Assembly (NCBI RefSeq): GCF_963678975.1
Contig: NC_089274.1
Coordinates: forward strand, 7,118,001-7,182,000
Origin: Dysidea avara
Taxonomy: Eukaryota > Porifera > Demospongiae > Dictyoceratida > Dysideidae
Length of the DNA stretch: 64,000 nucleotides
Direction of reading: 5' to 3'
A model generated the notes under the pieces. That model saw only the letters and a program-made list of their open reading frames with translations, did not search any database and was not told the origin of the DNA. Position 1 is the stretch's first letter. Each line of letters begins with the position of its first letter. Positions 6,036 to 63,500 of this stretch are shown one piece after another. The position numbers were made by a program, and so were the translations under genes.

Positions 6036-6449
6036 TCAGCAGGGGTACAAGCCTGGCACTAGTTCTTGAGCTTTCTTACAAATCATTGAGATGGTAAGAC
6101 GCTGCTTCTTTGCATATTGTTTCAGCACCCAGTTACGCAGTTTCATATCCAACTCTTTGCCGTACTTCACAGGTCTACCACTATTGGGGTTGTTTCGCCT
6201 ACGATCTTCCCTAGGAGAGTCCAAGTCAATCTTCATCCAGTACACTAGTGAAGAATCTGAGATGCCCAAATCCCTTGCATCTGGTTGCAGTCCTTTTTCT
6301 TTGGCCAGCTCAACTACAAATTTCTTAAACTGCACTGATCGGTTACTGGAGTATGGACCACGAGCTCCTTTACCATGATCACCAGATTTGCAGTCACCAT
6401 CAGCATCAAGATCAGTCTCACTAAGCCTTATCTTCTTCCTGGCCTTTAC
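6036..6449 (-). pseudogene. CENP-B/Tc5-like HTH transposase N-terminus fragment
   Basis: The open frame (stop at 6,036) reads back to an acceptor-like TTAATCAG at 6,450. It encodes a basic leader, a GRP linker, and then a segment of the form Y.KELD..LRNWVL....K..LTISMICKKAQEL. This resembles the second helix-turn-helix (HTH_Tnp_Tc5/CENP-B) of pogo/Tigger-type transposases. The frame stops before the FxxSxGWxxRF part of that domain, and no DDE catalytic domain is visible nearby. Either a transposon remnant or a captured exon; I prefer remnant. Its partner in opposite orientation is at 7,780. Confidence 0.5.
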
Positions 6450-7619
6450 CTGATTAACAAACAAAAACAATATTTCACAAGTGCTGCAGTGACTACAACT
6501 GCTTCAGCTTGCACACACAGAGTTGAAATAATTCATGAGGAAATATGTACAAGTGTGGTGGAAGTGCAACACAATCCATTCTTGTGATTCTAAGTTGTGC
6601 AGCCAACACTAGCACTGGAATGACGGTCATTGGATTCATCTCTGTAACCTTTTTTGGTGGCAAGCTATTGTGTTTATCATTTGTTACCATATACCTGGAA
6701 ATTTCTGCGGTACATATATTTCATGGTAGTACACTTTGTCAAGATTTTCGTGTTTTAAATTCATCTTAGCCCACATTTTAAAATTCACGTAAAAATCATA
6801 GATCACTGTTGCTCAATTCCAAGATTGTCATTCTCAACTATGAAGGGTATTGAATGATTTTTACTTCATTAGTTCAAGTGTCATAGCAATTGCTAAAGCA
6901 TGTCTGAACCAAGTAGCACAGCAGCGGCAATCCCTGTGCAAGGCATAGTCTACCAGCTTCTTTCATGAGCCATGCCAACTTTAATATCGGAAATGTGTGA
7001 TACTGTTTGTAAGTATACGTGGAGCCATGGTAATTTATCAGTAAGGTGAGTTGAAAGTTTGTAGGTATGCATGAAGCTATATCTTCTTACAGGAAAGTAT
7101 CATGCTGTCTTTAAACCGGGAATGATGATCGAGGCAGAAAATGCGAGAGGTGATTATCAAAGTGACTGATACTGAGAAAGCCAAATCTGCTAGTATCAAG
7201 ACTAAACGTTACGGTGATGTCTTCGCTGCACATGCTGACATGCACAATTTTCACATGACAAAACGTCACGATACAGCAAAAAACAGTGAAGATTATGTAC
7301 CACATAAATTTCCAGGCATACAGTAGCTACTTCTCACCAGCAAGGGATTCTCACATGGCTTTATAGTCTCATGTGTTCTACATAAGTGCACAAAACTGCT
7401 GTCCTTGCATATAAAAATTCAGAGATCTCGTAAGTTTCTTGTAGTTTGTTAACAGGTTGCAGTTGACTGTCAACACATCAACAGGATTAAGCAGACCAAG
7501 TTGTCACAATGAAAATAAACAAATGATGAAATAATTGTTTGTTGACTAGGCTGTTTACTGCATTAGAGGATGACATCATAATGTAGTATCAGGGTCATGT
7601 GAAACTTGTACAGTAGATT

Positions 7620-9176: not shown

Positions 9177-9869
9177 ATTTATTTAACATGAAAAACTCTT
9201 CAGTAGAACATACACTGTTAGACAGTTACAACATGATCATGAGGGTGTGGTTGAAGCATTTGAACATTTCCAAGAGCCCAGCAATGGTATATGTAATAAC
9301 ATTCTGGTCATACTACGTATTGCTTTTAAATAAAGCCGTGGGCTATGTACAATGAAAAATGTTACAGTCTCACCATTTAAGATCATCTATTTTATTGTTT
9401 AGGGATCCACAAGAGGCTGAAAGGCTATGCAGCTGAAAGTCATAATCTTGGATGTGAAAAATCTTTGTGTGTGCTTGCTAAGCTACCCTAAAACTAACAA
9501 CCATCCAAGAGCAATGCTATCTTCCTTAAGTTACAATGAAACAAGTCTGGTATGATTTCATCAATGCTATCATTACCACATGGATAATTACACATTACAT
9601 TATGTAATTAGTTAATTTGGTATTTGGATAATTCCCTACTGTTATGTCATACCCACACTGTTAAGACTTCTGGTAAGCCTATTTTTGACTGTTCATCAAA
9701 TTTCTGTTGTAAACTGTAACATCAACTATTACCAGTAATTCCTCCCACATGTTGATCACACTGGGATGCCTAGAGTTATCCCCAAATAAGCACATATCCA
9801 CCAAAACATGACAACTATTATGAATACTATCTGTGCATAAGTTTCTCAAAGTACACAGTCACAGCCTAC

Positions 9870-10002
9870 CTACTATGATAACAACTTTCTCAGCTCTGAC
9901 ATCTTCCTTGGTGCTGCTTTTCAGTATGACAATGTCTGCAGCAACAATCTCAGTTATTGGGTAGCAGTCAGGTAATTTTCCTTCATTCTTGATAAACACA
10001 TT
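9870..10002 (-). pseudogene. PIPOX exon 4 copy, still open
   Basis: This 133-nt segment is exactly the length of exon 4 in the intact gene (28,110-28,242). It is flanked by a proper acceptor (TTTTGCCAG) and donor (GTAGGC) and encodes an uninterrupted protein segment with NVFIK, DCYPITE and VILKSSTKE. Differences from the parent include replacement of the VVPG turn by IVAA and of KSG by KNE. Its neighbours exons 5 and 6 are broken and exons 1-3 are absent, so it is most likely a well-preserved relic. Confidence 0.8.
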
Positions 10003-10149
10003 CTGGCAAAACAAGCAAATAAGAAAGCAAGTATTAGATGGACACAGGTCTGCTATAGCAACAAATCTACAGTAATTTAAGGTTGCAATGGTACCACTCA
10101 ACAAATTCAGCAAAGTAATGCACAACAGAAAAAACTCCATAATAAGTCA

Positions 10150-11645: not shown

Positions 11646-14600
11646 CTACAACAGTTTTATGCCCTTTTGTGTAATCAAGGCACACAAGTTTTTGTGTCCA
11701 GTGTGTTCTGTCTCTTCCTTTAGTGCTTGTAAAAACTTCAGCACTGTACCATCATCTTTGCTGTCCAAAATTTGTAAAAGCTTAGTTATTTTGTCATACG
11801 GTGATTTTGAGGAATCTGTGAAAAAGAACCTTTCGTCTCTGGTCAGAATTTTGTGCCGGTTTAAGTAAGGAAACAGACAATTCAATTTGATGTATCTGAT
11901 CATTTCTGGGTGTAACTGCCATAGTGTATCCATTATTGTGCTCCCATCACAGTTTGCACATGAATATGTTGCACCAAGATCACCTACAGAAAACGACAAA
12001 TCAAACATCCATGATTTGACTTTATCTGTACTTACTTTCACAGTATGAGGCTCTACACAATAAAATGTAGGCTTCTTTTGGAATCGGTTGGTTGTGGTTT
12101 GGTCTACACAGAACCTCATCAGTGTCATTAATTTGATCAAGCTGGATATGAGGAGGATAGTTAGGCTCATGAATCAATGGACATTCTATGTAAGCAATTG
12201 GTTTTTCAGCAGATGGTATGCAAGAGTTGTGTACTTCATTGACACAGCATTTTAACTGAGTGACAAGTTCTTGGCGATGTTTCAACATTTCTTGTAGATG
12301 AGATTCACTGGTTTCCCGCTTCTGGTCAATGGTTATGATACATTTTATTGAAAATGTTGTTGAACATTGTTGCAATCTGAAGTACTGTCTTCTGTCTTTA
12401 AAATCAAAATGGCCACTTCCCTGGTACATTCTGCAACAAAAACACACATCACAATTCTGCTAGCTACATATCAACTCTTTATCTTACCCTCGAATTTCAT
12501 GGTCATTTTTGTAACACCAAACCACAGTCTTTACTAGCACACGATTGAAAAATGTTTCTGGCAGAAACTTGTCAGGGAAGTGAAATTGGATTACAACATC
12601 CCCCTCATTTTTGTGGTAGATTTTCTTTTCATTGTAAGTGAGCATGGATGGAATTAGAAAAACTCTACCCGATGTTGGAGTGGAATATGACTGATCTTCA
12701 TCAATGAACCTTGTATTGTTGGGAATAGTCACTGCAAGATCGAACATCTCTAGCAGACCAAGTAGGATACTTTTCTTATGTGCACAATTATGTGCCTCCA
12801 ACATGTGATCAAGAAGTGCTTCCTCAAGTATCCCATATGTCTCATATCGGTTACAGGACTTTTGTAGTTTAGCTGAAGTTGGTTCACAATTGTGGGTACT
12901 GATCACAGTGGAAACATTATCAGACACTTCCTGGGGGGATATGAATACTATATTTTGTAATGACTTTACTTGTGCATAGTACTGTAAGATCCCCTTTTGG
13001 TGGAAGTGATGCAAAATCAACTCAACATCCTCTTGCAAATTGGACTTTTTAGCAATTGCTGTAGCCTCTTCTTTAGTAATACTGGTTTTGGTTATGGAAG
13101 TCTTGAGAATTTCTGACTCAAACTGTAGATATGGTATGGGGCACTTCTTTTTTATAACACAATTTGCAGCTGCCATTACAACTTCTTTTAGATGCTCGAA
13201 TGCTTCTGGATCTCTGACAAAATTGTCAATGAAGTGGATTGCATCATTTTTAGACTTTGGTAAGTGATCCATAAAGGGTCTTCCTGAAAATTTCTCATAA
13301 ATTTTGTCTGTCATTTCTTCTCTCTGGTCACCTGTGAGACCTTTAGCATGAGTTGCTATCATGAAAACTATTGGAGTGCGATTAGAAGTAGACTGGATTT
13401 TATCGTCATTTGAATTGCTGTACACAGAATTTAAAGCCATTTCAATAGCCTCAAGATTGGTTTGGGTACCTTTTGCTTCAACCTTCTTCTTAAACCTAGT
13501 CCAACGTTGTCTAGTTTCTACCTGTCCGTCTAGTCCAATGGAGGCATTAAATACTACAAATACAATGTCTTCTGATGCAAGAAAAAAGCAACGTATTACT
13601 TGATAAATCTCTTGGCCTCCTATATCATATATAATGATTTTTATGTTACGACTTCCACCCACTGTTTTACTTTTAATAACTTTCTTTGCTTGAGAAACAA
13701 ATGATGCACAGTTTTGTGGAATACTATTTTTGGCTTTAGCTAGAACAGTGATATCTGATTTCCGAGACATCTGACTCATGCAAAGTTTCATTTCACTACT
13801 GTACTGTTTAGGCAGCTCTTCTATATGATCTTTTAGATTAGATTCTTGCCATTTAGAAACAAGTATACGGTCAACTGTGCATTTGTTTAACTTAGCACCA
13901 ACAGTAGTAGATTGATTTGGTTGAAACATTTTTCCTAGGAGGGCATCAATAGTACTGGTTTTACCTGCACCCTCCGGTCCTATTACAACAATTTTGAACT
14001 GGTTTGCAGTACGTACACCACTTTTTAGTGCTTGTTGAAATGATAATGCTGCCTTTCTGTCAAACTCTTCATGGCTCATTTTCGAATAGAAACCTGAATA
14101 TAAACAACATGATAACAAATTACTGTATGCTATACAACTCCATGTAAACATACTTTTCTCTATATCAAGTGCTGGCATAATGCTTAAACCATCTTCCTTT
14201 GGATTTGCATTCCATTTCGCTGACAGTTGCATCATTATTCTGTCAATCATTAGTTGTTGGTGCTACATATACATAATGAATGTGGGTCATGTATACTCTA
14301 TGCCTTTCTACTGTCATTGCACATTGTTATGTTGATAACAAGTAGATTATGTCAGTGTAATCTCACACAATGTACAATCACATACAGGATAAAATAATGG
14401 CCTACTACAACAACCGGGTACAACAACACTAATAGAACAACTCTATCATTACAATTATGCATGCATACAATTACACTGGAACTTACCACATCTCAATACA
14501 TCACACTCATGTTGTTACTTACCTCATCTAATAGACTAGCATCAATTTCAGCTCCATCAATAAAATATTTCACAATTTCAGTGTTCCTTTGCTCTAGTGC

Positions 14601-16566
14601 CAACTGCAGTGGTGTTTTCCCATCCTGCTCATTGAAAGTATATTCACATTGTGTGCGCATAGTGAAAGTGTCTATGTATGCGTGTACAGCTACATGTTTA
14701 GCGTACGTATATACTAATGGCTTAATTTTTGCACAGTATATAATTACACTTACATTACACACAAAGGTCTTTGTAATTCCATACCTTATCAATAGCATCA
14801 AGATTAGCACCGGCTTCCACTAGTAGTTTAACTATAACATATTTGTCGTGATAAGAAGCTGCATGAAGTGGTGTCCAATGTCTTGTCTTCAAAACATCAC
14901 AGTATATATGATACAGATAAAACAGCTGTAATGTTTACCATTTCAGGTATTTCAAGGTCAGCTCCAAAGCTGATCAGTTCTTTAGTAATGTCAACATGAC
15001 CAGTACGAGCGGCCCAGTACAAAGGTGTCTGATGGCCCTGTGAAGTAACGTGGATATACCAAACTAGTTGTATATGTTGGTGTGCCCTACATAGTCACTT
15101 TGACTTACCCAGTCTACAGTATCATAGTCAGCTCCAGCTTCTAACAGGACCTTGAGCACATCACATCGGCCATGGTATGCTGCCACATTTAGTGGTGTAC
15201 TATGAATCTATATATGTACACACATCAGTACATGCATAGCAGATTACATTGTAATGACATACTGAACTTAAAGCATCAATTTCTGCATCCAGCTCTAAAA
15301 GAGTTCTCACTACATCAACGTGACCTCCCCATGATGATATATGCAAAGGAGTTTGATTAAACTAGAGGCAAAGTAAACATACATGTAACTGCATAAAATA
15401 GCATGTTATCATGCATGCAATTCTAAATCATAATTAATGTGTTACGTTGGCGAGAACTAGACTTTTATATGCTGCATATAGCTATAATACATGTAAAGTA
15501 GCTAATTTTATGGATGACTATAATGTGTATTTATAAGCTGCAGATACAGTGTGTTCATATAGTATCATATCAATAACTCACCCATTGTTTAAAACGGACA
15601 TTGACAATGTCTACATCTTCATCCCATAATTTCTGCAGTACAGTTAGATTACCTTTTTGAGATGCTAAGAAAATCCGTCTGATCTCTTTCTGTAATGAAG
15701 TACATACAGTATGTATGATGTAATAATTGTGGTTGTCATGCAACCACACACTATAGCTATAGGGTATTTTATGTGAATGATGCAATGTGTTTATCAACAT
15801 CAATATGATCCCATTGATTATATTCCCATAAATGGGATAACCAATTAATTAACTTATTAGCTGTACAAACCACAATGTCATGTGCTGTTTCAGCTGTATA
15901 TGCCAGATATTGAGTATGATGTAATAGGCTAATATTGTACCCACCCGAGTACCCAACGGCCTACAGAACCTACACTTGTGTCAGTCAGAGCTAACTATAC
16001 TGGTAGACTATAGCTACAACCTGCATGTAGCTACCGAACATTTAGCTATATGTCTGCATGTGTGCCGTCAATAAATACAGACACTATAATATCTACGCTT
16101 ATAAATAGCTATACCCAGTTCGCAAGTATAGATACCGTAGCTACCCCCTCGAGCTACACAGTCCCAAATCTAGTAGCTACTACAGCTACCTGCGATTTCT
16201 GCCTGCCGGCCGGGGGCGGCTTCGCTAGAGAGAAAAACCATCATTGAAATGCTTTAAACACGCACGACTACAAAAACAGCTTTTCGCCAAAAACATCAGT
16301 CCCTCGGAACATCCGCTAGTCTTTCATGGTGGTATATCGTAACCTGTACCGGCTTCAGTTGGGTAAACACCAGGTAGCTATAGAGTAGTGCTTCCGCATC
16401 CTTTTTTGTAAAGTGACAAAGTTCAGCACTAATTATAATACATCCGTTAATGTGATCCAAGATGTGATCATAATTGACCTAACTATATAGCTACTTTAGC
16501 TGTGACTTTTCTTCTCACCTTATTAGCACTCTTGGCCTTTGGAAAAAGTAGTTCCAAATCAGCCAT
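11646..16566 (-). CDS. ANK-Roc-COR-CARD protein (ROCO family), copy 1
   Basis: Eleven exons join in frame to about 1,034 aa: 16519-16566, 15582-15689, 15263-15361, 15109-15207, 14939-15037, 14785-14886, 14523-14624, 14154-14262, 12488-14093, 12036-12430, 11646-11983. Exons 3-7 each encode one ankyrin repeat (TPLH/TPLY-type, 33-34 codons). Exon 9 holds a Roc GTPase (P-loop GPEGAGKTS near residue 294, switch II DIGGQE near 413, ATHAKGL at the G4 position) and most of a COR-like region. Exon 10 continues it, and exon 11 is a CARD-like death-fold. ROCO proteins are dimeric GTPase switches; a CARD would recruit other CARD proteins, so a cytosolic immune or death-signalling role is inferred. There is an unusually long stretch (~110 aa) between P-loop and switch II. 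The G4 THxD motif lacks its Asp. ATTAAA occurs 26 nt past the stop. Confidence 0.88.
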
Positions 16567-16859
16567 TAAGTAATCCCTCCACCATACATGTACACTATAC
16601 GAGATAAATACAATATAAAATAATCAACTTAAGTGTTCGATATATAGACGCCTATAGCTCTATGACGTAGCGGATGATTAAATATAATTGACACACGTGC
16701 GCACTCACGGATGACCTAATCGGGAGCACCTATCGCACTCATAATAGCTAGCTATAGTGATGGCAATTAACGACAATGCAAGTGAATTTCCTCCTATCAC
16801 AAAATTTTTTCCATTACTGAACCTACGAGGATTATAGCTTTACAGTGGCGGATCCAAGG

Positions 16860-17340
16860 GAAGCACGTGCCCCCCTCCCCCAAATCAAATATCAAGATAC
16901 TCTATATAATAGAGCAGTAAGTCAAATACTCCAATAGAACAGTCACCACATATAACACTCATGAGAATCATCCATAGAGTCGTTGAGTATACGAAAAACT
17001 AGCATCTGCAGCCCTATATTATATATATTATTACATAATATTATTATGCACTTACATGACCTTTTTTTTGTACATTAGTGTTATACCCTTGATGGGTTTT
17101 GCTAATCAATAAATAAATACATATAGGTCCATATATCTATAGCCAGCTGAACTACTCATTATCCCCATACAACTCTTGATCACATAGATATAGATATTAA
17201 TTTTGTGCATAAAACTTTACCACTCTACATCAAAATTTTTACTCCTGAAACATGTAAAATAGCTTTTACAGCCCCCCCCCCCCAGTCTCTACCCTGGTCT
17301 GGTGCAACCCCCATTGCCAAACCCTGGATCAGCCCATGGC
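16860..17340. repeat. dispersed repeat, family R2, copy 1
   Basis: The order of landmarks matches 41,870-42,300: AGATACTCTA..AATAG, then AATACTC.AATAGAACAGTCA, ACTC..GAG.ATC, AGCTGAACTA, TCTTGATCA, ACATG.AAATAGCTT, ACCCTGGT. A C-rich tract (CCCCCCTCCCCC) lies at one end. Class unknown. Confidence 0.7.
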
Positions 17341-17369
17341 TATGCATCAGAGATAATAGCCCCATGCAA

Positions 17370-17480
17370 CCATTTCTTGGCTGCACCTTGATAATTTCAC
17401 AACTTTTCACCCTGGCGACCCTGCATGTGCAGCTGGCCTTTTGGGGGGACACACCACAGCTTGGCTGTTCTAGTATAGAC
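17370..17480. mobile_element. half copy of foldback element F1
   Basis: Contains CAACCATTTCTTGGCTGCACC and then ACAGCTTGGCTGTTCTAG, the same order as the right arm of the elements at 2,724 and 4,494; the left arm is missing. Confidence 0.7.
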
Positions 17481-17494
17481 ATTAAGCACCAGCC

Positions 17495-17595
17495 TATTAT
17501 GCTTTTAATTTTTCCTATTATGCTATGCTGCAGTGCTCAAAATTTTTGCCTATTAGCACTATGTGCTCAAAATTATGCTCAAATTTTTTGCCATA
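17495..17595. repeat. TATTATGC-type dispersed repeat
   Basis: CCTATTATGCTTTTAATTTT and CCTATTATGCTATGCTGC followed by TGCTCAAAATT blocks; related to 3,090, 20,830 and 22,262. Confidence 0.5.
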
Positions 17596-18665
17596 AACTT
17601 TGAACATCTGGTTAAATGTAAACAGTACTCATTGTGCATTAAGAATTTGGCTGCATTGTAAACTATAATAACAGTGGTGTCATCAGTAGCATCAACTGTT
17701 CTATTATTGTAAGCAAGAGTAAATAACTCTTCCATTATTTACTCTTGATATAACCATATCTCACAGAAAGATTTATGTGTAAAAGTAAAACCAAACACGA
17801 GGCGACAAACTTGTCACTTTGAATTCCTACTTTGTAATCTGTATAAGTGTTTGCACTGCCCAGCAATGTTCCATAAAGGAACACATGTTGCAATTATTGA
17901 CTGTGTAGGGGAATGAGCACCTGATTGAGTCCTTATAAACAATGAGCAAGCTGTTAGTATGTTAAACAAGTACCTGGTTGGTTGTCAAATGTTTCCACAT
18001 AATAATATAGCGGATGGTTTTACAGGAACTAAAAACCTCACAACCAATACAACTCTACATGATGAAACATGTTCCAAATTATTTTAACGAATGAATATAA
18101 ATCATATAATATAGCAGTTCAAGCCATAGAATCATGCAAGTGACTTTTTATAGTGCAATTGTAAACTGTAAGTGTTCGTGGGTGGGGAGATTGGTGTGTT
18201 TGGGTTGGAATCTCCCAATTTTTGCTCACTAGATAATTTTGGCATCAGTTTCTTTTTCTTTGTGCAGTTGATTTGTACCCAGTTTCTTATCAGAACACTT
18301 GGTAAATAATCAATGGTAACTACATAGCTACAGTATTGCATTGCAATTGTTGAAAAGCATAGCACATTGAATTTTATACAGCTAGTGATCATGATTATGT
18401 TAACCACACTTCTATCTCTAAACAAGGCAGGATATTAATTACACTTTTGAAGTAATGGCTATTTCTGTGACATAGCCTGATCAAACAACCTGTACTGATA
18501 CTAAATAAATATATGGGATATCAGATTTAAATAATCAGATGTGGTATCAGTACAGGGCTAAATCATTAATACACAGATATGCGCGATTCACAATTGCACT
18601 CAAATAATTAGAAAAAAATTCACAATTTTATGCATTTTATGCAACTTTTACACTTCACAATTTCA

Positions 18666-30595
<11,930 letters not shown>

Positions 30596-30671
30596 CGCGT
30601 GCAAGCGCTGGCGCTAAAATTAGAACCGTTTTCAGTACTGTGCCTGTGGACTATATATCACGTGTGTTTCG

Positions 30672-30725
30672 CCATAGATACTATTAGATAGTATATTCTC
30701 CGGAGAATATACTAACTATCTATGG
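30672..30725. repeat. short palindrome upstream of PIPOX
   Basis: CCATAGATA at the left and TATCTATGG at the right, with arms meeting at TATATTCTCCGGAGAATATA; a near-perfect inverted repeat of 54 bp, 77 bp upstream of the PIPOX start codon. It could be a tiny foldback element or a promoter-proximal site. Confidence 0.75.
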
Positions 30726-30798
30726 TTTCACTCAGTACGATTGGTAAAAATATGTCAAACATACATCATAAGGCCTGATAAAAGTGTAGCTATTCATG

Positions 30799-31569
30799 AG
30801 AATCACCCGTAAACACAATCCAATCACCTACAACTACACCATTAATGACATCTCTATCAAAGAAGTTTCATCTACATATTTAGGAGTTACAATCACCAAT
30901 GATTTGTCATGGTCCACACACATTACTAACATCACTTGCAGTCAAAGCATTCCTAAAGAGAAATCTTAAGTCCTTCCCAACTCAAATTAAATTGAAATGT
31001 TATAATACCATGATAAGACCAATCTTAGAATACGCCAACCCTGTCTGGTCCCCTCACATCAGAAGAGACATTGATAAACTTGAACAATTAAGTACAGAGG
31101 CAATCTGCCAGATTCATTATGGCTAGTGACTTGAAGTGACTTCGCGCATTTCAGCAGCGTAACCAACATGCTCATTGACCTTAACATTCCCAGTTTAGAA
31201 CACCGCAGACAAGTATCCATCCTCTACAAAATTGTTCATAATCTCATTGATATATCTCCTGTTGATTTAATCCCTGTCACTTCTAACACCAGAGGACACG
31301 ACCAAATATTTTATCATATCTATGCAAGGACCAATCAGTACAGTAACTCGTTCTTCCCTAGATCAATAAGACTGTGGAATTCACTCCCACCTGACCTAAT
31401 CCAACAACAATCATTACAAATTTTTAAGCACCAACTGAAACTATTATTACTTTCCCTACCAACCAGTAATCCCATAATCAATCATATTGTAAAACATTTT
31501 GTATGCATGTTTCATATGTGCGTTAATCCTCAAACTGAGGTTGCACATTTTTGGAAAATAAATACATAA
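30799..31569 (+). mobile_element. LINE ORF2 C-terminal remnant
   Basis: Three frames in succession give STYLGVTITNDLSW, then KCYNTMIRPILEYANPVWSP with LEQL after it, then FFPRSIRLWNSLPPDL. These are the standard order of motifs at the end of a non-LTR retrotransposon reverse transcriptase (thumb, connection, C-terminal WNSLP). Frameshifts near 30,930 and 31,125 and the lack of the RT core show it is dead. It separates PIPOX from the second ROCO gene. Confidence 0.9.
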
Positions 31570-31617
31570 ATTAGCCCCTCATGTATATTGGATAGATGAG
31601 CCCAGTCTATGATAACT

Positions 31618-34600
31618 TTATACTCGGCCCCTCCGTTGTGCTAGTAAAGAATAAAGTTTCATATGTCCAGTATGTTCTGTCTCTTCCTTTAAAGCTCGTA
31701 TAAACTTCAGCACAGTACCACTATCTTTACCATCCAAAACTTGTAAGAGATAAGCTATCTTTTCATTTTGAGATTTAGAAGAATTGTTAAAACAGAACCT
31801 TTCAGATCTGGTTAGAACTTTGTGTCGGTTTAAATAAGGAAGTAGACAGTCTAAATTGATGTACTTATTCATCTCTGGGTTGAGTTCCCATAGCAGTTCC
31901 ATTACTGTATCATCATCAAAATCTGCACAGTCTGAATATGGCATATCGGGATCAGCTGTAACATATAACAACACGACTTCACTTAGATACCACACTCCTT
32001 AGCTACAACTTACTTTCACAGTATGAGACTCTGCATAGTAAAATGTAAGCTTCTTTAGGAATTGGTTGATTGTTGCTTGGCCGACACAGAACCTCATCAG
32101 TGTCATTAATTTGATCAAGCTGGATATGAGGAGGATAGTCAGGCTCGTGGATCAATGGACACTCTAAGTAAGCAATTGGTTTTTCAGCTGATGGAATACA
32201 AGAGTGGTGTACTTCACTGACACAGCATTGTAAATGAGCAACAAGTTCATTGCGATGCTTCAACATTTCTTGTAGCTGAAATTCATTGGTTGCTCGTTGC
32301 TGGTCAACAGTTATAAAGCACTTTATTGAAAATGTTGTTGAACACTGCTGCAATCTGAAGCATTGTTTCCTGTCTTTAAAATCAAAATGGCCACTACCAT
32401 GGTAGATTCTGCAAAAAAAAGAGAGAAAACTTGACAAACAGTATAGCCTTCTGTACAGTCTTACCCTCTAATTTCATGGTCATTTTTATTACACCAAACC
32501 ACAGTTTTTACCAGCACTCGATTAAAAATTGTTTCTGGTAGAAATTTGTCAGGGAAGTGGAACTGGATTACAATATCCCCATCTTTTTTGTGATAGATTT
32601 TCTTTTCGTTGTAAGTAAGCATGGATGGTATTAAGAAAACTCTACCTGATACTGGAGTGGAATATGACTGATCCTCATCAATGAACCTTGTATCTTTATG
32701 AAGAACTACGGCAAGATTGAACATCTCCAACAGACCGAGTAGGATATTTTTCTTGTGAGTACGATTACATGCCTCCAACATGTGATCAAGAAGTGCTTCC
32801 TCAAGTATCCCATAAGTTTCATATCGGTTACAGGACTTCTGTAGTCTTGCTGAATTTGGTTCACAATTGTGTGTACTGATTACAGTGGAAACATTATCTG
32901 AAACTTCTTGTGGTGATATGAACACCTCATTTTGTAGTGATTTCACTCTTGAGTAATATTGTAAGATTCCTTTTTGGTGGAAGTGATGCAATACAAACTC
33001 TATGTCATCTTGCAAATTTGACTTTATAGCAATTTCTGAAGCTTCCTGTTTAGTAATAGTGGTTTTGGTCAAGGATACATTAAGAATTTCTGACTCAAAT
33101 TTTAGATATGGTATAGGGCATTTCTTTTTGATTACACAGTCTGCAGCTGCCAAAACTACTTCTTTAAGGTGCTCAAACACTTTCATATCTCTGACTGCAT
33201 TGTCAATGAAATGAATGGCGTCATCTTTAGATTTCGGCAAGTGGTCCATAAAGGGTCTACCTGAAAACTTTTCATATATTGTGTCTTTCATTTCTTCTTT
33301 TTGTTCACTGGTGAGATCTTTGGCATGGGTTGCTATCAAAACAATTACTGGTGTACGATTGGAAGTAGAGCCTGCACTTTTGATACTACATTGACTATAA
33401 ACAGAATTTAAAAGCATTTCAATAGCTTCGAGATTGGTTTGGGTCCCCTTGGCTTCAACTTTTCTTTTAAATCTTGTCCAACGTTGTCTATTTTTCACAT
33501 GTCCGTCAAGTCCAATGGATGCATCAAAAACTACAAATGCAATGTCTTCAGAAGCAAGGAATAGGCAACGCAGTACCTGATAAATTTCTTGACCTCCAAG
33601 GTCATATATTATAATTTTTACATCACTGCTTCCACCAAATGGTTTGCTTTCAATGACCACTTTAGCTTCTGCAAAGGTGGCTTGGCTATAAGTAAATTTG
33701 AAGGTACCTTTGCTTAAATGCTCTTCCACTGGTTTTCGGGACACTTTATTCATGCAGGACTTCATTTCACACCTGTACTGTTTGACTACATCTTGCATGT
33801 GATCCTTTACTTCAGTTTGTTTCCATTTACTGACAAGAATTCGATCCACAGTACACTTGTTTAAATCAGCACCAATGGTAGATGCCTGGTCAGGGTTAAA
33901 TGGTTTATTTAAAAGTGAATCAACTGTGCTGGTTTTTCCAGCACCCTCAACTCCAAGCAAAATCAACTTAAACTGGTTGGAGGCACGCGTACCAATCTTT
34001 AAAGCCTCTTGGTAGGAGATGGCTGTCTTTCTCTTAAATCCTTCATTCCCTCTATTAGAATACAGACCTATATAGCATAATGATGGCTTAGCAGAAGGTC
34101 ACAAACTCAATACATACTCGTTTCAATAGCAAGGGCTGGTATAATACTACTAGCACACTGTCTGGTATCCATTTTCATCATCAAACTATCAATCATTAGT
34201 TGCTGATGCTATGAAAAAAATACATACTGTACGCTATTATCAAAGTAACTAAGTTGAGTACTTCATCAAGCTGGGTAGCTTCCATTTTGGTATCTTCAAC
34301 AAAATACTGCACAACTTCAGTATGTTTCTGCTGTAAAGCCAACTGCAGTGGTGTATTACCATCCTATCAATTACTGACTTTAATCAATAGCTCTCACATA
34401 AGCACACACACAAACTCACCTTGTCTGTGGCATCAAAGTCAGCTCCAGCATCTACCAGCAACTTCACTATATCAAGATTACCGTGATAGGAGGCTGCATG
34501 TAAAGGTGTCCAGTGTCTTGACTTTGATTAGAGCAACCACTATAACGACCACTTGAATACACACACATAACTTACCATCTCAGGCTTTTCAAGATCAGCA

Positions 34601-35641
34601 TTAGCCAGGATAAGCCTGTCAGTAATGTCAGTATGACCACGACGGGCAGCCCAGTACAATGGTGTGTGATGACCCTAGTATAGAATTAAATTAGACCAAC
34701 AACTTATATATACTACTTACACTATAACACTTACCCAATCTGTACTGTCACATTTAGCCCCTGATTTCAAAAGTAGGTTTAGCATGTCACACTGCCCATG
34801 ATAGGCAGCCACATTTAAAGGAGTACTATTTACCTATCAGCATAAGTAGAAAGGACAAGCACAGTCAAACAGACTATTAGGATAACATGCATGTGATCCA
34901 AAGAGTAAATAAACATTTAGTTTAGTATGGTTTCAGTGTAAAAGTATAATCCCATCACAATAATCACATGTTTCCAATTATGAAGTGATGAATTGACATC
35001 AAGAGCTTACCGAGCTCAGTGCTTCAACTTCAGCTCCTTGCTCTATGAGTGAAGTGGCTACATCAATGTGACCACCCCATGCTGACAAGTGTAACGGTGT
35101 CTGGTTGTACTACATAAACACAAAACTCTTGATACCAATTTAAGCAGTACAATATACTAACCCAATTCTCAAAATGAGTATTTGCAATGTCCACGCCTTT
35201 CCCAATAAGCTTCTGTATCGCACTATTGTCACCATCCCTGGATGCTGACATAATCTGGCAGTATTCTTCCTAATGAGAGAAAGTCTATAAATAGACCATA
35301 CTTACACCCACAATCACTGTACATATATCTATGCATGTAACTAGTACGAGAATTGAAATACTGACTGGAATAAAAGATTGACAGCAAAAATGGGGTAGGT
35401 AAAAACAGTGGACCCGGGGACCAAGGACCCAGGACCAGGGGACTTTACTTTACTTGGAATTTTATACCCTTCACAATATTCTATACTTATACTAGGTACC
35501 TCTGCAAGCAGTCTTGCATGGCCAATCCACTTTTTCCCATGTCACGGTGTCTCACACTATGTTTAAACTAATTAGAAATTATAAGCGCCTCTGAAAAAGT
35601 GTCTGAAGCTGTAGGCCACTCACCTGCTGCATAATGTGCAT
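31618..35641 (-). CDS. ANK-Roc-COR-CARD protein (ROCO family), copy 2
   Basis: Paralogue of the gene at 11,646-16,566. Firm exons: 35162-35269, 35011-35109, 34735-34833, 34576-34674, 34420-34521, 34262-34363, 34118-34208, 32465-34067, 32014-32408, 31618-31955. Lengths equal those of copy 1 for all but the linker exon (91 versus 109) and the Roc exon (1,603 versus 1,606). Domains are the same: five ankyrin-repeat exons, Roc with GVEGAGKTS and DLGGQE, COR, and a CARD-like end. The G4 position reads ATHAKDL. The first exon is uncertain: a six-codon MHIMQQ exon at 35624-35641 followed by GTGAGT fits the phase, but it is weak and unlike exon 1 of copy 1. The ankyrin exon at 34,262 uses a less usual donor GTACTC. 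About 1,017 aa; function inferred as for copy 1. Confidence 0.87.
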
Positions 35642-57000: not shown

Positions 57001-60000
57001 TACTTATGTGTTTTTGTGTGTTCTACAGCTATACCTGCAATCCTGCACAAGTTCATTAGATGATTTGGCAATTATTCAACTTGACATTCAAAAGTACATA
57101 TAATGGTTACTAGTAGTGCTTGTCACTTTTGAAGCCAACAAACGTGGCTTAATAGAGGCTACAAAGCTCCAGTAATACGAAAAGCAGTTTTACTGACAAG
57201 GTACTGTACACAAACGAGAGTCAAGTAAAAGTCGTATCACTCCAGGCTAGATTTGAAAGCCATTGTACAGTCAGTATAATAACACACTGGGTTTTGTTAA
57301 TTGTGTGCGTGTCATCCATAACTCACATAATCTGGTATCTCTGGTAGTTCAAATGCAATCTGGCTGGGGTTGGTTGTGTTGTAATAGTAGGTCTTGCCAG
57401 CATCACCTTTCCCAAACCCCCACTAGAGAGGAACAACAAATCACATAAGCTAACAATCATAAAGACAATACAGTAGAGTTCATTAAGAAGTGTAGGAGAG
57501 TGCCAAAAATCAACTGCTTGTACAACAGATGCTAATAACAGGACCTGGGTTTGTGTAAAATAATAATAGCCCAAATCTATATGTACAGACCCATCAGCCA
57601 TAGGTATGACTAATTATTTTTCTAGCATTTTCCAGTAACTAAATCTGTGTTTGATGACCTACCTTTTGCACTGTTATTGCCATTCCTAATGCATGCCTCT
57701 CAAATTAGTATCTCTGCTGCTAATAGAATACTACTGTTCTAGGGCTAAACTATTGTATTCTACAGAATGAACAACTGTGGTGCTAATGGTCTGCTTGGTG
57801 TGGTGTGTTTGCTCTAGTTAGACAATCTCACGCACTGCTAATAAACTCCAGGTACAAGTCAACAGCCTAAACAAACTGTATTTCCCTTAGCAACAACAGG
57901 TATGTAGAATGAGCTACAAAGATTTAGCAGGGCTACATTCACCTATATACTAAGTATGGTTGTTTGTTCCTGTGGCCTTTCAGCTATCTAAATCCAGTGA
58001 TCATGACTGATCAGATGGCTTTCCCTAATTCATAGGGCATGAAGTACTCTAGGGAATTTTCAAGCAGTGTTGCTGTGAGGGTGGCTTCATTACATTCAAC
58101 TATTTTAGGAGCATCACTACAAACATGACTGGAGCCACATGATCTCTACTTCCTTCATCTACGGAAGTTCAAAATTTACAAGGAAAATGAACAGTCACTA
58201 GAATAAACAGTGATATAAAACAGGGGGTGTGATAATTGTGGATATTTACATGTAAGTACTCTAAACTCCCACGTACTTACAAGCACATTTTACGACTCAT
58301 AACGACTAACAATACCGATGACATATCACACATAAACATTACCCTTTCGTTTGTCTTCAGGTTAAGATATAAAGGCAGTCCAAAGGGAGTTGTTTCCTTT
58401 TTCCAGCCAGGAGGTATTATAGTTTTCTATTAAAAAAACAATAACAGTTTGTAACAAGAACAAAACCAGAGTACCAAACACATTGCATGTATAATAAACA
58501 AGTCAGTACTGTATAAAACACATCTGTTATTCACTAAAAAAAAGAAAAGAAGTAAACCTGGGGTTTAGGGGCGGCCGGTCTTTTCCAAGACGAATCCCTA
58601 GTTTTTTCATTGTAGTAATATGGAGTACCATCAGGAGTGCGATATTGTTTCCAGCCTTCTGGTAAAGGCTCCTCTTCTTCTTCGCTGCTACTGATACTTG
58701 ACAGCTTGCCTGTTTTGTTGTTAGCCACAGGAGCTTGTTGCAATGGTGACGTGGGGCTGGTTGCAAGTGTATTATGTCGCTGAGTAAAGCCATTGGAAAA
58801 AGTACTGGTTGCTGGTGTTGGCTGAAACAAAAAAGAAATTATTTCACAATGAATGGGCACCATAATTAGTAAAAAAAATTGACTCAACAGAGAAACAGGA
58901 AGCTGGTCCCACCTCAGCAGTTGATAGGTTGCCTTTAAACAGACCAAGTTACCAAATTTAGAACCCCCACAAACCATAAAGAAACTAAAAATCTTGGAAA
59001 ACATCAACTTACCTACTTTTCTATTTATGTGTAGAATGGTCTAATATCAGGACCAATCAATTGTACACCACAAAATAAACTGACAAAGTTGTTAATTCAA
59101 AAAGATCTGCTTAATTGTCCATACGTGGGTCCCAATTACACATAAAGTTCTTGTACTACACATGTTGGAAAGCAATTACTAAACCTATCCTGAGCATAAG
59201 CCCTACAAAAATATTAAATTTAATAGGCTTCAATACATTTCTAATTAATGACCCCCATGCTGAAGTCATGCATACCTCTTCAGAAATGCCCCTCTCTGTT
59301 CTTGGCTTTGGTGTTGGTAAACTGTTTTGGCCAGAAGGAACTGATTTTGAGAGACTGAAAGTACTAATTTCAGGATCATCCAAACCACTCACGTAACTTG
59401 CTCTCTTTTGATACGACTTTGAACCATGATGTTCTTCCATACTACTTGTTCTTCTTTGCACTGGCTTTGTTGTTGTTGGTGGTAAGTGTTTGTCAGGAAA
59501 TCTGTCAGAACTAGTAGTCCTGTTTACTGGTTTCGGTGGAACAAAAGGTGGTGATGGTGTATTTCTAAGTGGTGACAATAATGGAGGGCTGGCTGGGTTA
59601 TCAGGAAACTCATTTGGAGAAATTGCCATCCCAAATGTACTACCACTGCCTCGTGGCAAAGTGATACTCTTTTCCACTGGACTTTTGACTTTATCTTCTT
59701 TTGGTTGTGGGGGTGGCGGGGCAGGTCTCATAATAGGTCTTACATGTACATTCTGATAAATATTTTCACCATGTCCATCATTATCATCCATTTTAATTAA
59801 CTCCATTTTCTGCAGTGAAGATTTTGTTGTCATCCTTCTGTCCAGGGATTTAGTCTTGCTGTTTTGAACCACAGCAGCAGCGGGTTCAGTCACTTCTTCA
59901 ACATACAAAACCGGCACGTAGATTTCTTCAACGTCACCACTGACGTTGGACCTTTTGACATGCCACCAGTCATTGTTCACCTTGTTTATTAAAGAAAAAC

Positions 60001-60079
60001 GGTCGCCTATCTTAAATGATACGGTCTTTCCACCATGTGTATACGAGTAGTCAAATTTGGCTAGCACAACAGCGGCCAT
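43794..60079 (-). CDS. ARHGAP12/27-like: SH3-WW-PH-RhoGAP protein
   Basis: GTPase-activating protein for Rho-family GTPases, family of ARHGAP9/12/15/27. Seventeen exons splice in frame to 860 aa: 59276-60079, 58558-58821, 58343-58426, 57327-57422, 49821-49985, 49431-49483, 49298-49385, 48992-49081, 48762-48860, 48079-48160, 46578-46646, 46097-46177, 45489-45587, 44858-44935, 44498-44632, 44311-44428, 43794-43971. Exon 1 carries an N-terminal SH3 (ALYDY-like AKFDYSY, NDWWHV) and a proline-rich linker with PAPPPPQP. Exons 2-4 hold WW-type modules ([25 protein letters not shown]). Exons 6-9 form a PH domain. Exons 12-17 form RhoGAP, with the arginine finger in GIYRLSGN and [17 protein letters not shown] chose MAAVVLAKF as start; an upstream in-frame ATG at 60,094 is possible. 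Length and order match the family. Intron 4 (7.3 kb) is a transposon nest. Confidence 0.95.
44112..44240. repeat. ACAGTGRAACTTGTCTAAG repeat, copy 2
   Basis: Partner of 43,190-43,330, here inside an intron of the RhoGAP gene. The AAGTTGGCC block follows in both copies. Confidence 0.65.
44998..45085. repeat. (AC)n microsatellite
   Basis: About 80 bp of pure AC, then one GC interruption, in an intron of the RhoGAP gene. Confidence 0.97.
45143..45394. mobile_element. 9-bp TSD DNA transposon family, copy 3
   Basis: Begins TAGTCTCGTG and ends CACGAGACTA, with inverted termini of about 45 bp (CCCACCCACT...AGGTAGGGTCTGG). It is flanked by the perfect 9-bp direct repeat ACAAATGGG at 45,134-45,142 and 45,395-45,403. 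It has no coding capacity and sits in a RhoGAP intron. Confidence 0.95.
46480..46560. repeat. GT/GC-rich low-complexity tract
   Basis: Degenerate TGTG/GCGTGC run directly beyond the donor side of RhoGAP exon 11. Confidence 0.8.
48675..48737. mobile_element. tiny inverted-repeat element
   Basis: ATACAGTGGAACCGGTAT at the left and ACAGGTTTCACTGTAT at the right are inverted copies of CAGTGRAACC ends around a short core. The same terminal motif starts the repeats at 43,190 and 44,112, so it is likely the smallest member of that family. Confidence 0.55.
49534..49604. repeat. TG/CG-rich microsatellite
   Basis: Interrupted (TG)n with CG steps, in a RhoGAP intron next to exon 6. Confidence 0.9.
50100..51670. 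other. RhoGAP intron 4, near exon 5: repeat debris
   Basis: Includes a half tip of foldback F1 (CACAGCTTGGCTGTTTTGTG at 50,131-50,150). The rest is AT-rich with no supported exon. Confidence 0.6.
52533..52645. mobile_element. foldback element inside the piggyBac-like element
   Basis: GTTATACAACG at the left and CGTTGTATAAC at the right, with inner GAGTGCTCTGCCTG / CAGGCAGAGCACGAGTG and AAACGCAC / GTGCGTTT, around a CpG-rich loop. No clear target duplication. Confidence 0.8.
53385..53560. repeat. cluster of small hairpins
   Basis: Successive palindromes GTGCAATATCTGTATATTGCAC, GTGCATTATAACTTATAATGCAC, TGTGGTCTACAAAACCACA and AGTGCGTTATAATGCACT share a GTGCAxTATA core. They occupy about 175 bp near the right end of the piggyBac-like element. 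Confidence 0.8.
54140..54195. repeat. CA-rich tract
   Basis: CACACGCACACGCACACAC run; no coding signal. Confidence 0.85.
54730..54924 (+). pseudogene. possible von Willebrand D-type fragment
   Basis: The frame contains [20 protein letters not shown], which resembles the strand pair of a VWD domain (V.V.WDG...V.V.L), and ends in a stop where the usual CGLCG would follow. It lies antisense in intron 4 of the RhoGAP gene, with no neighbouring exon that I can join. Probably a fragment or a chance likeness. Confidence 0.25.
54930..56085. other. RhoGAP intron 4: no gene seen
   Basis: AT-rich. A 101-codon plus-strand frame at 55,318-55,623 shows no family features. Confidence 0.5.
56097..56547. 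mobile_element. hAT-like MITE
   Basis: Ends TAGTGTTGCAC and GTGCAACACTA, each followed inwards by CCGATAACCGAT-type sequence. It is flanked by the perfect 8-bp direct repeat ATAATAAG at 56,089-56,096 and 56,548-56,555. Eight-base duplications and this terminus fit hAT transposons. Inside, about 63 bp starting CATGTATTTCTAAATAAAA and ending GGCGCCGATC are tandemly duplicated (56,350-56,475). No transposase. Confidence 0.92.
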
Positions 60080-60532
60080 AACGACCTTATACAATAATAC
60101 AACAAATTGACCGAAAAATTCTTCGCTACAGTAAGATGCTAACGTATAAGCCTAAGAAAGAGAAGTAGATATAAATCCAACCTGAATATGAGTGTTTATA
60201 ACACTTGTGACAGATATAAAACTGTCTCATTACTGAACAAGCTTGCAACACGTTTTGACAAACGAGCAGCTCACCTGTTGTAGTTACTTAATTCGCTAAT
60301 CAACCAATCAACCTCACCTAATGTCTTTGACTAATATTGTAACATTGAAAACACTCACGTACACTCCGTAGATAAATGCAAATGTTGCTCACGATTTTAA
60401 GGCTAATCCGAGGGCTAATTAAGCACGTATACTTCAGTGTTACGGATGTTACTTTTAAAAAATCCAATTTCCTGTGACGTATGTAATAGATGTTCCGTCA
60501 ATTTCCGGAACGGTGAATAAAATTTTTACACG
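60080..60532. promoter_or_regulatory. intergenic spacer between calpain-7 end and RhoGAP start
   Basis: Only about 450 bp separate the calpain-7 stop from the RhoGAP start codon, both on the minus strand. The RhoGAP promoter should lie here or overlap the calpain-7 3' end. No clear TATA box was seen. No polyadenylation AATAAA in sense orientation was found close to the calpain stop. Confidence 0.4.
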
Positions 60533-63500
60533 TCAAGACATTACACAATCTGTAAACACAGTTAAAATAAATGGACCCTCTTGTCCAGGATAGAAAGTAC
60601 TTGGAGATATTGTATATGATCCACCAGCAAGGTTAGGTAGCTCCAAGACAACATAACCAGGTCTAAAAAACAAATTAACAAAATACGTGTGAGTACATGT
60701 GCACATAGATATATTAGACAACCTATAAACTCCAGAATCCATCATCTTTGACCCACTAGGATTGTCAGTAGCTTGACAGGTTATTCCAACATTAAATTGC
60801 CTGAAAATAAAAGACAAAAGTGATGATTGGTAGCTAATCTACGTAGATAATTCTTTATACTTTGGTGCTTTTAGCTTGATCAATACTTGACACTGGTTGG
60901 CAAAAGTTGGATGAAAGGTAAAGGTGTATTTTGGGTTGTTGTTATGAGTGGAAGGATAGTTTAAACAGCCTCCAGCTGTGACTCCTTTCCATTCACCAGT
61001 AATCTGCAAAAAATACATGATGTACTGAATGCATGTGAAACAGATAAGTATTAAGGCGTAAGCATCTACGTAGATTACCTTGGTCTAAGCCAGTATATAG
61101 TAAGTGGATGCATTACACTGTACATTCAAGTTGGACATTGCTTTTGTTTGGAAGTTCAAAACATCTGAACCATTTAAACTTCAATCCTTCATAACCCATC
61201 TGCCTGGCATTGGGCTGCAATATTCAATGGTAAGTCTGTGGTGAAATAGCTATCTATTGCTGCAGCTATAGATAATTCATTCATTCCGTTTTTGTCCAAA
61301 AATTGTGCACAGTTAATAATGCATATATACCTGCAGTCATGTTGTATACACACAATAGTACTATATTCCAGGATGTTGATTTGTAGATTAGTGAACAGCC
61401 AAAACACTTCAATACACTATGGCATCAGTAATTATTAGCCTTTTCTAGTGATTCTACATATCGATGCAAGAATTAATATGCACAGTAGTGGTTAAATAAT
61501 ATTTAAGATTAGGTACTGGGCAGTCAGCTCAGCTGTATGGTGAGCTGTTCCTGGACAAGTACAATTACTATGACATAAAGTTTGATGTGTGGGGTTCTTA
61601 CTAGGGACACAACATGCAACATTAATATATTGCAACACAAACAATATGGCTATTGCTGTATTGCAATATATCGTAGGGTTGTGGCTTGTGGATAATTGCT
61701 CAGCATTAAAATCCACCAGAAAGTAACATATCAAAACATATGTATGGGATTTGTCAAATCTAGCATTTTTAGGTGGTCAACACTAAAAGTTTTCAAAACA
61801 CTAGGTTAAACCCTTAAAATTTAAGAATTATGCATTTAATATCTTTTTTGAAACCTCAGCTTGGTAAAACAGGCTGATTATAAAATCTCATCATTCCTTG
61901 TCAGTCGTTGTCCGATGCAAAATACATGTATTTTACACTACATACAAAAACACAAATTTACAACCTTTAACTCACAAAATCTCTACAGCACACCATACAA
62001 TAAAAGAAAGCCCTTGAATTTCTCTATACAATGCTGACTGTACAAATGGGAAAATGTTGTCATAGCGACGGTTATTTATTGCTGATGATGACATAATACA
62101 CACTCCATACATTAATCTATTGGAAAATTTAATTATCTCAGCGGGAAAATCCCAATTTACAAGTTGTTATGCTCAACCAAATTCGCTAAATTTGGTATCA
62201 TTCTACGCAGCGAAGGATGCTTAATAAGACTCTAACCGTACAAATTGTTAAACAGGTTAGTTTACAGAAATAAGCGTTTTTACAGGAATTCTGAACACGT
62301 AAATTTCATGGTACAAGGCTCCTTTTTAGCTTCCCCTTCATTACTACACAAAGAACTTACACATGAATCGATTCACCTTTCATAGAGGAATCTGATAAAC
62401 CAAACTTCGTGTCTGTCAACCAGAGTACGCAGAAGTTATGGTGCCTTGTTTAGAAGATGGTGTTATTTTATACAAAATGGGCGTAACCTATTTGAAAATC
62501 CGGAATATCTTACACAAGAGCTATAGCTACTTGTAGCCTATACTTGTAATGTATTTGATAATGGTTGGCTTGTCTTGTGGGTACACGAGTTGCTTACACA
62601 AGTACATACAACATTCACTTGCAACATCACCAAAGGTCTGCTAAACAATATTGCAATGCATTTTTAAAGACAATACGAAATATGGTGTTTACCCGTATTG
62701 TTGCATCTCTTACCACACGTGGTGCAGTGCTAAAGGCACAATTATGCATTGAACACGATTAACAATAACACATTAAAAATCAATAACCCATGTAGATACA
62801 AGTTTAAAAGTCGCATGTAAAATAATACCTTTATACACATGTACAGTATATGCATTGCATAATCTTTACCAACCTCCTTTTGATGATTATAAGGATCGCG
62901 TATTTTAGTAAGGCTGAATTCTACAGTGGAGTAAACCTATTATATATAACATGAAGTCTAACACTCACTATTAAGAGCCTTGCTGTACCTTTAGTGTGTA
63001 ATGTATTGTAACATTTTCAAATTGGGCCACGATGAGTGTGTATGAGTGAGTGCCTTTAGAGATGTCATGTAGTTTAGACAAGTAGTGTGGTGTGTTGATC
63101 TTGATGCCTTCATTGAGGTAGTTACCTGTACGTGGAAAATATGGACAAGAGTAAAGCAAAGATAGTCAGTGTGCGCACACTAGTAAAACATCCACAATAA
63201 AGTACAGTCTGTACATCTCTACATCTACTGTAGCCTCTACTGAAATGTGATTATGTGTGTACACACGAAGAGTTATCCACTTTGTGGTTGACATAAATAT
63301 TGTTGTCCCTTCCCTCTCTCAAGTGTACACAAGAAAGATTTACAACAGTGTATGTACTATACAGCATGTTACTCACCAGGGTAATATACTCTTTTCCCAT
63401 TGCTTTCAACAACATGTATTGTGATGAACTTCTCATTGTGGGCAAAGTCATTCTGTACAGCACTATATCAGTAGTGTCTCACACATGATACATTACCTTC

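Follow-up and report, generated by a model that had tools for sequence, protein, structure and literature searches.

The stretch of Dysidea avara DNA analyzed here (hereafter, the window; 64,000 nucleotides, C3:7118001-7182000) carries on its minus strand two genes, A and B, whose spliced products combine ankyrin repeats, a Roc GTPase, a COR region and a last exon of the CARD class, clear in A and marginal in B. Splice sites were judged by eye, and the exons were joined by script. Gene A runs from 16566 to 11646 in 11 exons that encode 1034 amino acids, the first exon being a candidate; gene B runs from 35269 to 31618 in 10 exons that encode 1011 amino acids, a settled first exon not included. 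All introns in both genes are GT-AG, both reading frames are free of stops, and the two spliced proteins are collinear, with ~20 kb separating the genes. GT-AG introns and open frames thus bear out the first-pass annotation, which had described two minus-strand genes that splice in frame. The interval that it gave consists of two separate genes with sarcosine-oxidase-like exons lying between them.

Gene A would begin with the candidate exon MADLELLFPKAKSANK (16519..16566), which is unproven; no other exon listed in 15690-19000 has both an ATG and an in-phase GT(A/G)AG donor. In the splice model the ankyrin region begins in exon 2 (15582..15689) and continues through exons 3-7 with one repeat each (15361-15263, 15207-15109, 15037-14939, 14886-14785 and 14624-14523; overall 14523..15361), matched by Pfam Ank in five stretches. 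A linker exon 8 (14154..14262; splice model) leads into exon 9 (12488..14093), where Pfam and motifs locate the Roc GTPase, with its P-loop and DIGGQE motif, together with COR-A. Exon 10 (12036..12430), in the position of COR-B, encodes the remaining COR as judged from matches in relatives, with no Pfam model above cut-off, and exon 11 (11646..11983) encodes the CARD and the stop codon, as identified by Pfam and by a PDB profile search. Gene B follows the same plan on the same strand. Its candidate first exon MHIMQQ (35624..35641), at which the interval of the first-pass annotation ends, is unproven and one of four candidates, all weak. From its first settled exon, where the ankyrin region begins (35162..35269; splice model), the gene proceeds through five ankyrin exons (35109-35011, 34833-34735, 34674-34576, 34521-34420 and 34363-34262; overall 34262..35109; splice model and Pfam), a linker exon (34118..34208; splice model), the Roc GTPase and COR-A exon (32465..34067; Pfam and motifs), the remaining COR (32014..32408; splice model and matches in relatives) and the CARD exon with its stop (31618..31955), which lies below the Pfam cut-off and is 60% identical to that of gene A.

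Pfam finds the domains of both spliced proteins in the order Ank, Roc, COR-A, CARD (A: Ank 2.4e-35, Roc 6.9e-13, COR-A 8.2e-14; B: Ank_2 1.5e-34, Roc 6.8e-14, COR-A 1.7e-11), with Roc and COR-A above their cut-offs in both and COR directly behind Roc. The P-loop reads GPEGAGKT in A and GVEGAGKT in B, and the DxxGQE motif reads DIGGQE and DLGGQE, so that the ankyrin repeats, Roc, COR and intact GTPase motifs claimed by the first-pass annotation are all present in both genes. The G, G and K of the P-loop and the DxGGQE residues are invariant in all 21 aligned Roc-COR exons. In A, 94 residues separate the TTVGA motif from DIGGQE, a spacing that is roughly 70 residues shorter in small GTPases; because Roc is longer than usual, its Pfam match is split. 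A Roc-COR profile searched against the PDB found among its best matches LRRK2 chains, aligned over COR, and bacterial chains that we take to be Roco proteins, and its P-loop part matched Rab GTPases. Pfam found no Death match in either spliced protein at E up to 0.01, no NACHT, LRR or WD40 match, and no kinase match, the last in proteins whose candidate first exons are unproven and whose short upstream exons were not searched; two minus-strand open reading frames upstream of B also lack a Pfam match. The GTPase is the only enzymatic domain that Pfam finds in the pair. We rejected membership of A and B in the NLR family given the lack of both NACHT and LRR matches.

The CARD assignment is strongest for gene A, whose last exon exceeds the curated Pfam cut-off of 23.9 bits both in the spliced protein (29.4 bits, 8e-7) and in the exon's own open frame (30.2 bits, 4.8e-7); the 149 CARD matches listed in a whole-genome Pfam search include A's exon and not B's. 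We built a CARD profile, A1, from 26 rows, namely the exons of A and B and 24 other exons of the genome (L017, L030, L032 and L034 of the 28 loci L011-L038 being excluded); the profile is partly circular, its rows having been chosen for their similarity to the exon of A. Against the PDB it returned 58 matches at E up to 1, of which 50 come from CARD-holding proteins, including CARD11 (4.1e-7), CARD9, APAF1, RAIDD, BinCARD, ICEBERG (2.3e-5), BCL10, CARD8, NOD1, CED-3, caspases 1 and 9, and others. One of these 50, the ASC fusion 5gpq, is a weak match (0.033) with a title silent on which ASC domain is present, and the other eight of the 58, led by a designed protein at 3.4e-5, are designed or unrelated chains. 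Death, DED or pyrin identity was rejected since the profile finds CARD proteins. Compared directly with a death-domain alignment (A3), A1 gave a probability of 1.2% over 20 aligned columns and no mutual match. By these profiles the last exon is of the CARD class, clearly in A and marginally in B. The first-pass annotation had called it a CARD-type death fold, from motifs that we located in the last exons of both genes; its call stands for A and is weaker for B, and the profiles likewise point to a CARD, rather than to something other than a death fold, in the last ~110 residues.

Aligned over 1010 codons, A and B share 70.4% identity, with dN 0.183, dS 1.034 and dN/dS 0.18, values by which the two genes are under purifying selection. 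Intact frames, GT-AG introns and this ratio led us to reject chance assemblies or decayed copies. Divergence at synonymous sites is uneven along the pair: in 100-codon windows dS is 1.2-2.3 over the ankyrin repeats and early Roc (the first window being without a value), 0.9-1.1 over late Roc, 0.43-0.70 over COR, in windows spanning codons 584-963, and 1.05-1.25 over the CARD terminus. The COR tract (about 12036-13107 and 32014-33084) thus has a dS of ~1/3 that of the ankyrin and Roc part, and dS is higher again in the CARD exon. A dip of this kind over COR is what gene conversion would produce, and the tandem copies have probably undergone it there while the sensor and output ends diverged. 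Around the pair, minus-strand exons resembling sarcosine oxidase (9859-10146, 21112-21315, 28099-28305 and 28449-29102) adjoin each ROCO copy. The segment 28452-29102 matches sarcosine oxidase in the PDB at 1.2e-8, and 9859-10009 and 28099-28249 are 82% identical; 21112-21315 was assigned to the set by eye only, and three pieces tried gave no Pfam match at E up to 0.01. Since such exons flank each ROCO copy, a block of ROCO and oxidase genes was probably duplicated in tandem.

We compared the pair with its relatives across the genome (550.8 Mb, 108 contigs), scoring searches exon by exon over the best 150 of 331 CARD, 150 of 653 Death and 150 of 713 Roc candidates. A's Roc-COR exon has 83 matches; of the 29 rows ranked directly after A, 28 align over almost the full exon at 38-74% identity. 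Eighty of the 83 rows were typed (three fragment rows were dropped), some of the 80 being fragments or stop-bearing copies. A CARD exon was detected within 20 kb downstream of two of the 80, A and B alone, a count that could miss weak CARD exons because the CARD list holds the best 150 of 331 candidates. On a separate Roc-family list that includes neither A nor B, none of the 150 best Roc exons has a CARD exon within 15 kb downstream. Death domains, by contrast with CARDs, recur in this family: Pfam places Death exons no more than 15 kb downstream of at least five of the 80 typed matches (among the best 150 of 653 Death candidates), and by eye a death-like exon follows COR in 12 of the 28 loci L041-L068 (L041-L050, L056 and L068). 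When nine terminal regions from eight loci were compared with Pfam Death, four scored above the cut-off, three below it and two (L051 and L065) were unmatched, and an alignment of nine death-like regions matched the death domains of RIPK1 (1.2e-4), FADD and PIDD in the PDB. Read by eye, the acceptor of the death exon is in phase 1 at all 11 loci that show it, with the donor visible in five of these, as in A and B. In these death-type relatives the Roc-COR exon is 44-51% identical to A's, Roc and COR-A mostly share one exon, and the protein ends in a death domain, sometimes, by eye, in two. Ankyrin repeats are clear ahead of one of them, L048, which has a stop in its Roc-COR exon. The terminal region of the L051 type has no Pfam match at E up to 1, nor any convincing one in the PDB, and terminal domains of L057-L064, L066 and L067 were not seen within the fetched stretches. 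On C4 (47.68-48.78 Mb), the near-identical Roc-COR copies L051-L055 are mixed with copies that carry 8 to 14 stops, forming an array with decayed members.

For a tree of 27 Roc-COR rows, rooted at its midpoint, we used alignment A2, which excludes L045, L048, L053-L055, L060, L064, L065 and L068 of L041-L068, and added back L045, L053-L055, L060 and L064. A and B form one clade (100/100), against which 14 neighbors cohere (98/90). Death-type rows occur in both main clades, nine in the neighboring clade and one (L056) in the deeper one, and five rows of the L051 type have an unrecognized terminal domain. The simplest reading that fits this tree is that the death domain is ancestral and that the CARD was acquired once, a reading that the unlabeled rows could overturn and for which the root is unproven.

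Taken together, these observations make it reasonably probable, in our judgment, that A and B are tandem paralogs of a kinase-less, DAPK1-like Ank-Roc-COR type, that in their common ancestor a CARD exon took the place of the death exon behind the same phase-1 intron, and that their output is the recruitment of CARD proteins. It is read from the sequence that A and B have this architecture, keep their GTPase motifs intact and are under purifying selection, and that several close relatives end in death domains entered through the same intron phase. We infer from this that a death domain preceded the CARD in the family. Because several of its nearest relatives in the genome carry death domains, the pair is most readily understood as a domain-swapped offshoot of a Roc-COR-Death family that resembles DAPK1. 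Several points weigh against this history. B's CARD stays below the 23.9-bit cut-off, at 20.1 bits (6.6e-4) in the spliced protein and at 22.6 and 23.1 bits when the last exon is taken alone, and A's CARD exon alone, searched with phmmer against the PDB, has no significant match, the best being an unrelated chain at 0.18, with CARD11 at 0.61 behind three unrelated chains. Ankyrin repeats ahead of further death-type relatives are weakly matched in three of the four examined (L069, L071 and L072, E 5e-4 to 0.003; not L070). In the tree, the deeper clade shows a death domain in L056 only, 10 of the 27 rows are without a known terminal domain, support for uniting A, B and the 14 rows to the exclusion of the long row L067 is weak (83/51), and the root is set by midpoint only.

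Among known proteins, DAPK1, of the metazoan ROCO group that has a death domain and no LRR, resembles A and B in running from ankyrin repeats through Roc-COR to a C-terminal death-fold domain, as its published descriptions give it (PMC4917528, PMC6337361). Its ROC-COR is described as binding and hydrolyzing GTP and relaying its state elsewhere in the protein, and its contacts as mediated by the ankyrin repeats and the death domain (PMC4917528); a ROCO review groups death-domain ROCOs with DAPK1 (PMC6337361). Unlike DAPK1, A and B show no kinase or calmodulin-binding part, a CARD replaces the death domain, and the ankyrin repeats number about six by exon count as against 10. LRRK1, LRRK2 and MFHAS1 share the Roc-COR core with A and B, which are without an LRR, kinase or WD40 match. 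NLRC receptors (CARD-NACHT-LRR) are alike in that a nucleotide-binding switch drives a CARD output behind a repeat sensor, but A and B have Roc for NACHT, ankyrin repeats for LRR and a C-terminal rather than an N-terminal CARD. Roc-COR is also combined with CARD among the ROCOs of an early animal, Trichoplax adhaerens, in which at least 17 genes are reported and the parts around Roc-COR include CARD, death, TPR, LRR and AAA (PMC4104024, a 2014 review), the CARD and death statement being repeated in 2024 (PMC11378527). The figure legend by which we compared them names no ankyrin repeats, and the order and class of the CARD are not visible from it (PMC4104024). Sea anemone and Aplysia ROCOs likewise shuffle Roc-COR with immune signaling domains; the additions named in the relevant sections are TIR, death, kinase, SH3, MBT or EF-hand, with no CARD tied to Roc-COR there (PMC5094078, PMC9334734). 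A survey of NLRs in D. avara covers 24 immune Pfam domains, and its table has neither Roc nor COR (PMC12909245). The novelty suggested by the first-pass annotation is overstated. ROCO with CARD is not new as a combination, because it was reported for Trichoplax in 2014 (PMC4104024); Ank-Roc-COR-CARD, and an exchange of death for CARD exons within one ROCO family, were not found in the texts, figures aside, of the open-licence literature, where ANK-ROCO wording occurs for algae and COR-CARD wording in unrelated contexts.

The genome offers many possible sources for such an exon, with at least 149 CARD exons above the Pfam cut-off (best 150 of 331 candidates scored). For D. avara 39 CARD genes have been published (PMC12909245), and many CARD exons may be absent from gene models. 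A's CARD exon has 108 genome matches, A and B included; beyond the pair the closest, at 51-52% identity, lie on C3, some 785 kb off, and on C12. When 17 other CARD loci were scanned for acceptors, 11 had candidates, each including phase 1 and nine of them phase 1 only, and six had none; the scan was loose, and phase-1 acceptors at other CARD loci fit exon shuffling. Candidate partners were sought by comparing 206 CARD places, merged by hand, with 48 of 89 caspase rows and with 4 of 105 NACHT rows. Among those caspase rows, near C13:9739242, one caspase exon has a Pfam CARD exon 2.6 kb upstream of it, and at C10:3520525, among those NACHT rows, a stretch like A's CARD (25% identity, E 4.8e-5), which is not among the Pfam CARD matches, shares one 1118-residue open frame with NACHT. 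The C13 CARD-caspase and C10 CARD-NACHT arrangements are possible partners of A and B. Elsewhere, two exons that look ubiquitin-like by eye lie just upstream of an A-related CARD exon (L015, C7:12064449-12067724), an exon that looks immunoglobulin-like by eye lies just upstream of another CARD exon (L018, C12:4399574-4402840), and caspase-family exons form a dense tandem series at C9:3.10-3.50 Mb, on the minus strand except for one.

By analogy with DAPK1, the ankyrin repeats of A and B would sense by binding a ligand or partner; GTP-dependent opening or dimerization of Roc-COR would then expose or cluster the CARD, which may draw in CARD-bearing effectors through like-with-like contact. Such a device would likely serve as an intracellular trigger of immunity or cell death, and the terms 'NLR-like sensor' and 'immune or death switch' used by the first-pass annotation are plausible inferences. 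More tentatively, the genome may hold a counterpart of the NLR system built on ROCO proteins, namely a Roc-COR family that has expanded with exchangeable death-fold outputs and of which A and B would be the CARD-wired branch, acting as a GTP-gated, inflammasome-like CARD platform.

All of this presupposes that the CARD exon belongs to the genes. Our models rest on splice sites read by eye and joined by script, so that the exon might come from another gene or be a read-in artefact, with the real ROCO proteins stopping after COR. We regard this as very improbable: the COR-to-CARD intron is only 52 bases in A and 58 in B, the CARD exon is 338 bases long and in the same phase in both copies despite a dS of about 1, its dN/dS between A and B is about 0.25, and relatives carry a death-domain exon behind COR with the same entry phase. 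Granted the exon, the CARD could serve as a brake: by occupying CARD effectors as a decoy it would damp death or inflammatory signaling, while the ROCO part sets its availability. Like-with-like CARD contacts can inhibit as well as activate, as with the CARD-only inhibitors ICEBERG and COP, and ICEBERG is itself among the A1 matches (2.3e-5); that Pfam finds no enzyme but the GTPase in the pair also suits a decoy. The ankyrin repeats and GTPase in front, however, resemble a regulated scaffold, and the sister genes carry death domains, which are usually recruiters, so that we hold a braking role to be unlikely. CARD and death domains are mainly modules of signaling assembly, and a swap between the two classes suits a changed signaling partner. 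Both points tell against the view, to us an unlikely one, that A and B are DAPK- or LRRK-like regulators of cytoskeleton, trafficking or autophagy, in which the CARD only dimerizes or localizes the protein and has no immune or death role. In its favor, the ROC-COR of DAPK1 is described as overlapping a cytoskeletal-binding region and its ankyrin repeats as affecting its place on actin filaments (PMC4917528), and such roles are described for the ROCO proteins of slime moulds and humans (PMC4104024).

Outside the ROCO pair, WW and SH3 exons adjoin calpain domain III exons on the minus strand of the window (58534-61084), in a WW-SH3 order that is presumably GAS7-like. A remnant of a Tc5-type transposase DNA-binding domain lies at 6036-6503 on the minus strand (18.4 bits, cut-off 22.2), and an open frame that looks retrotransposon-like by eye lies at 30884-31569 on the plus strand.

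If A and B did exchange a death exon for a CARD exon as we favor, a signaling output would have been replaced on an otherwise unchanged GTPase switch by way of one phase-1 exon, and one kind of switch may be rewired in this manner to a different downstream pathway. The family would then provide a natural experiment on how Roc-COR affects the domain behind it, with bearing on DAPK1 and on the relay of state in LRRK-type switches. It would also give an early animal's immune repertoire a candidate receptor that is built on ROCO and not on NACHT.

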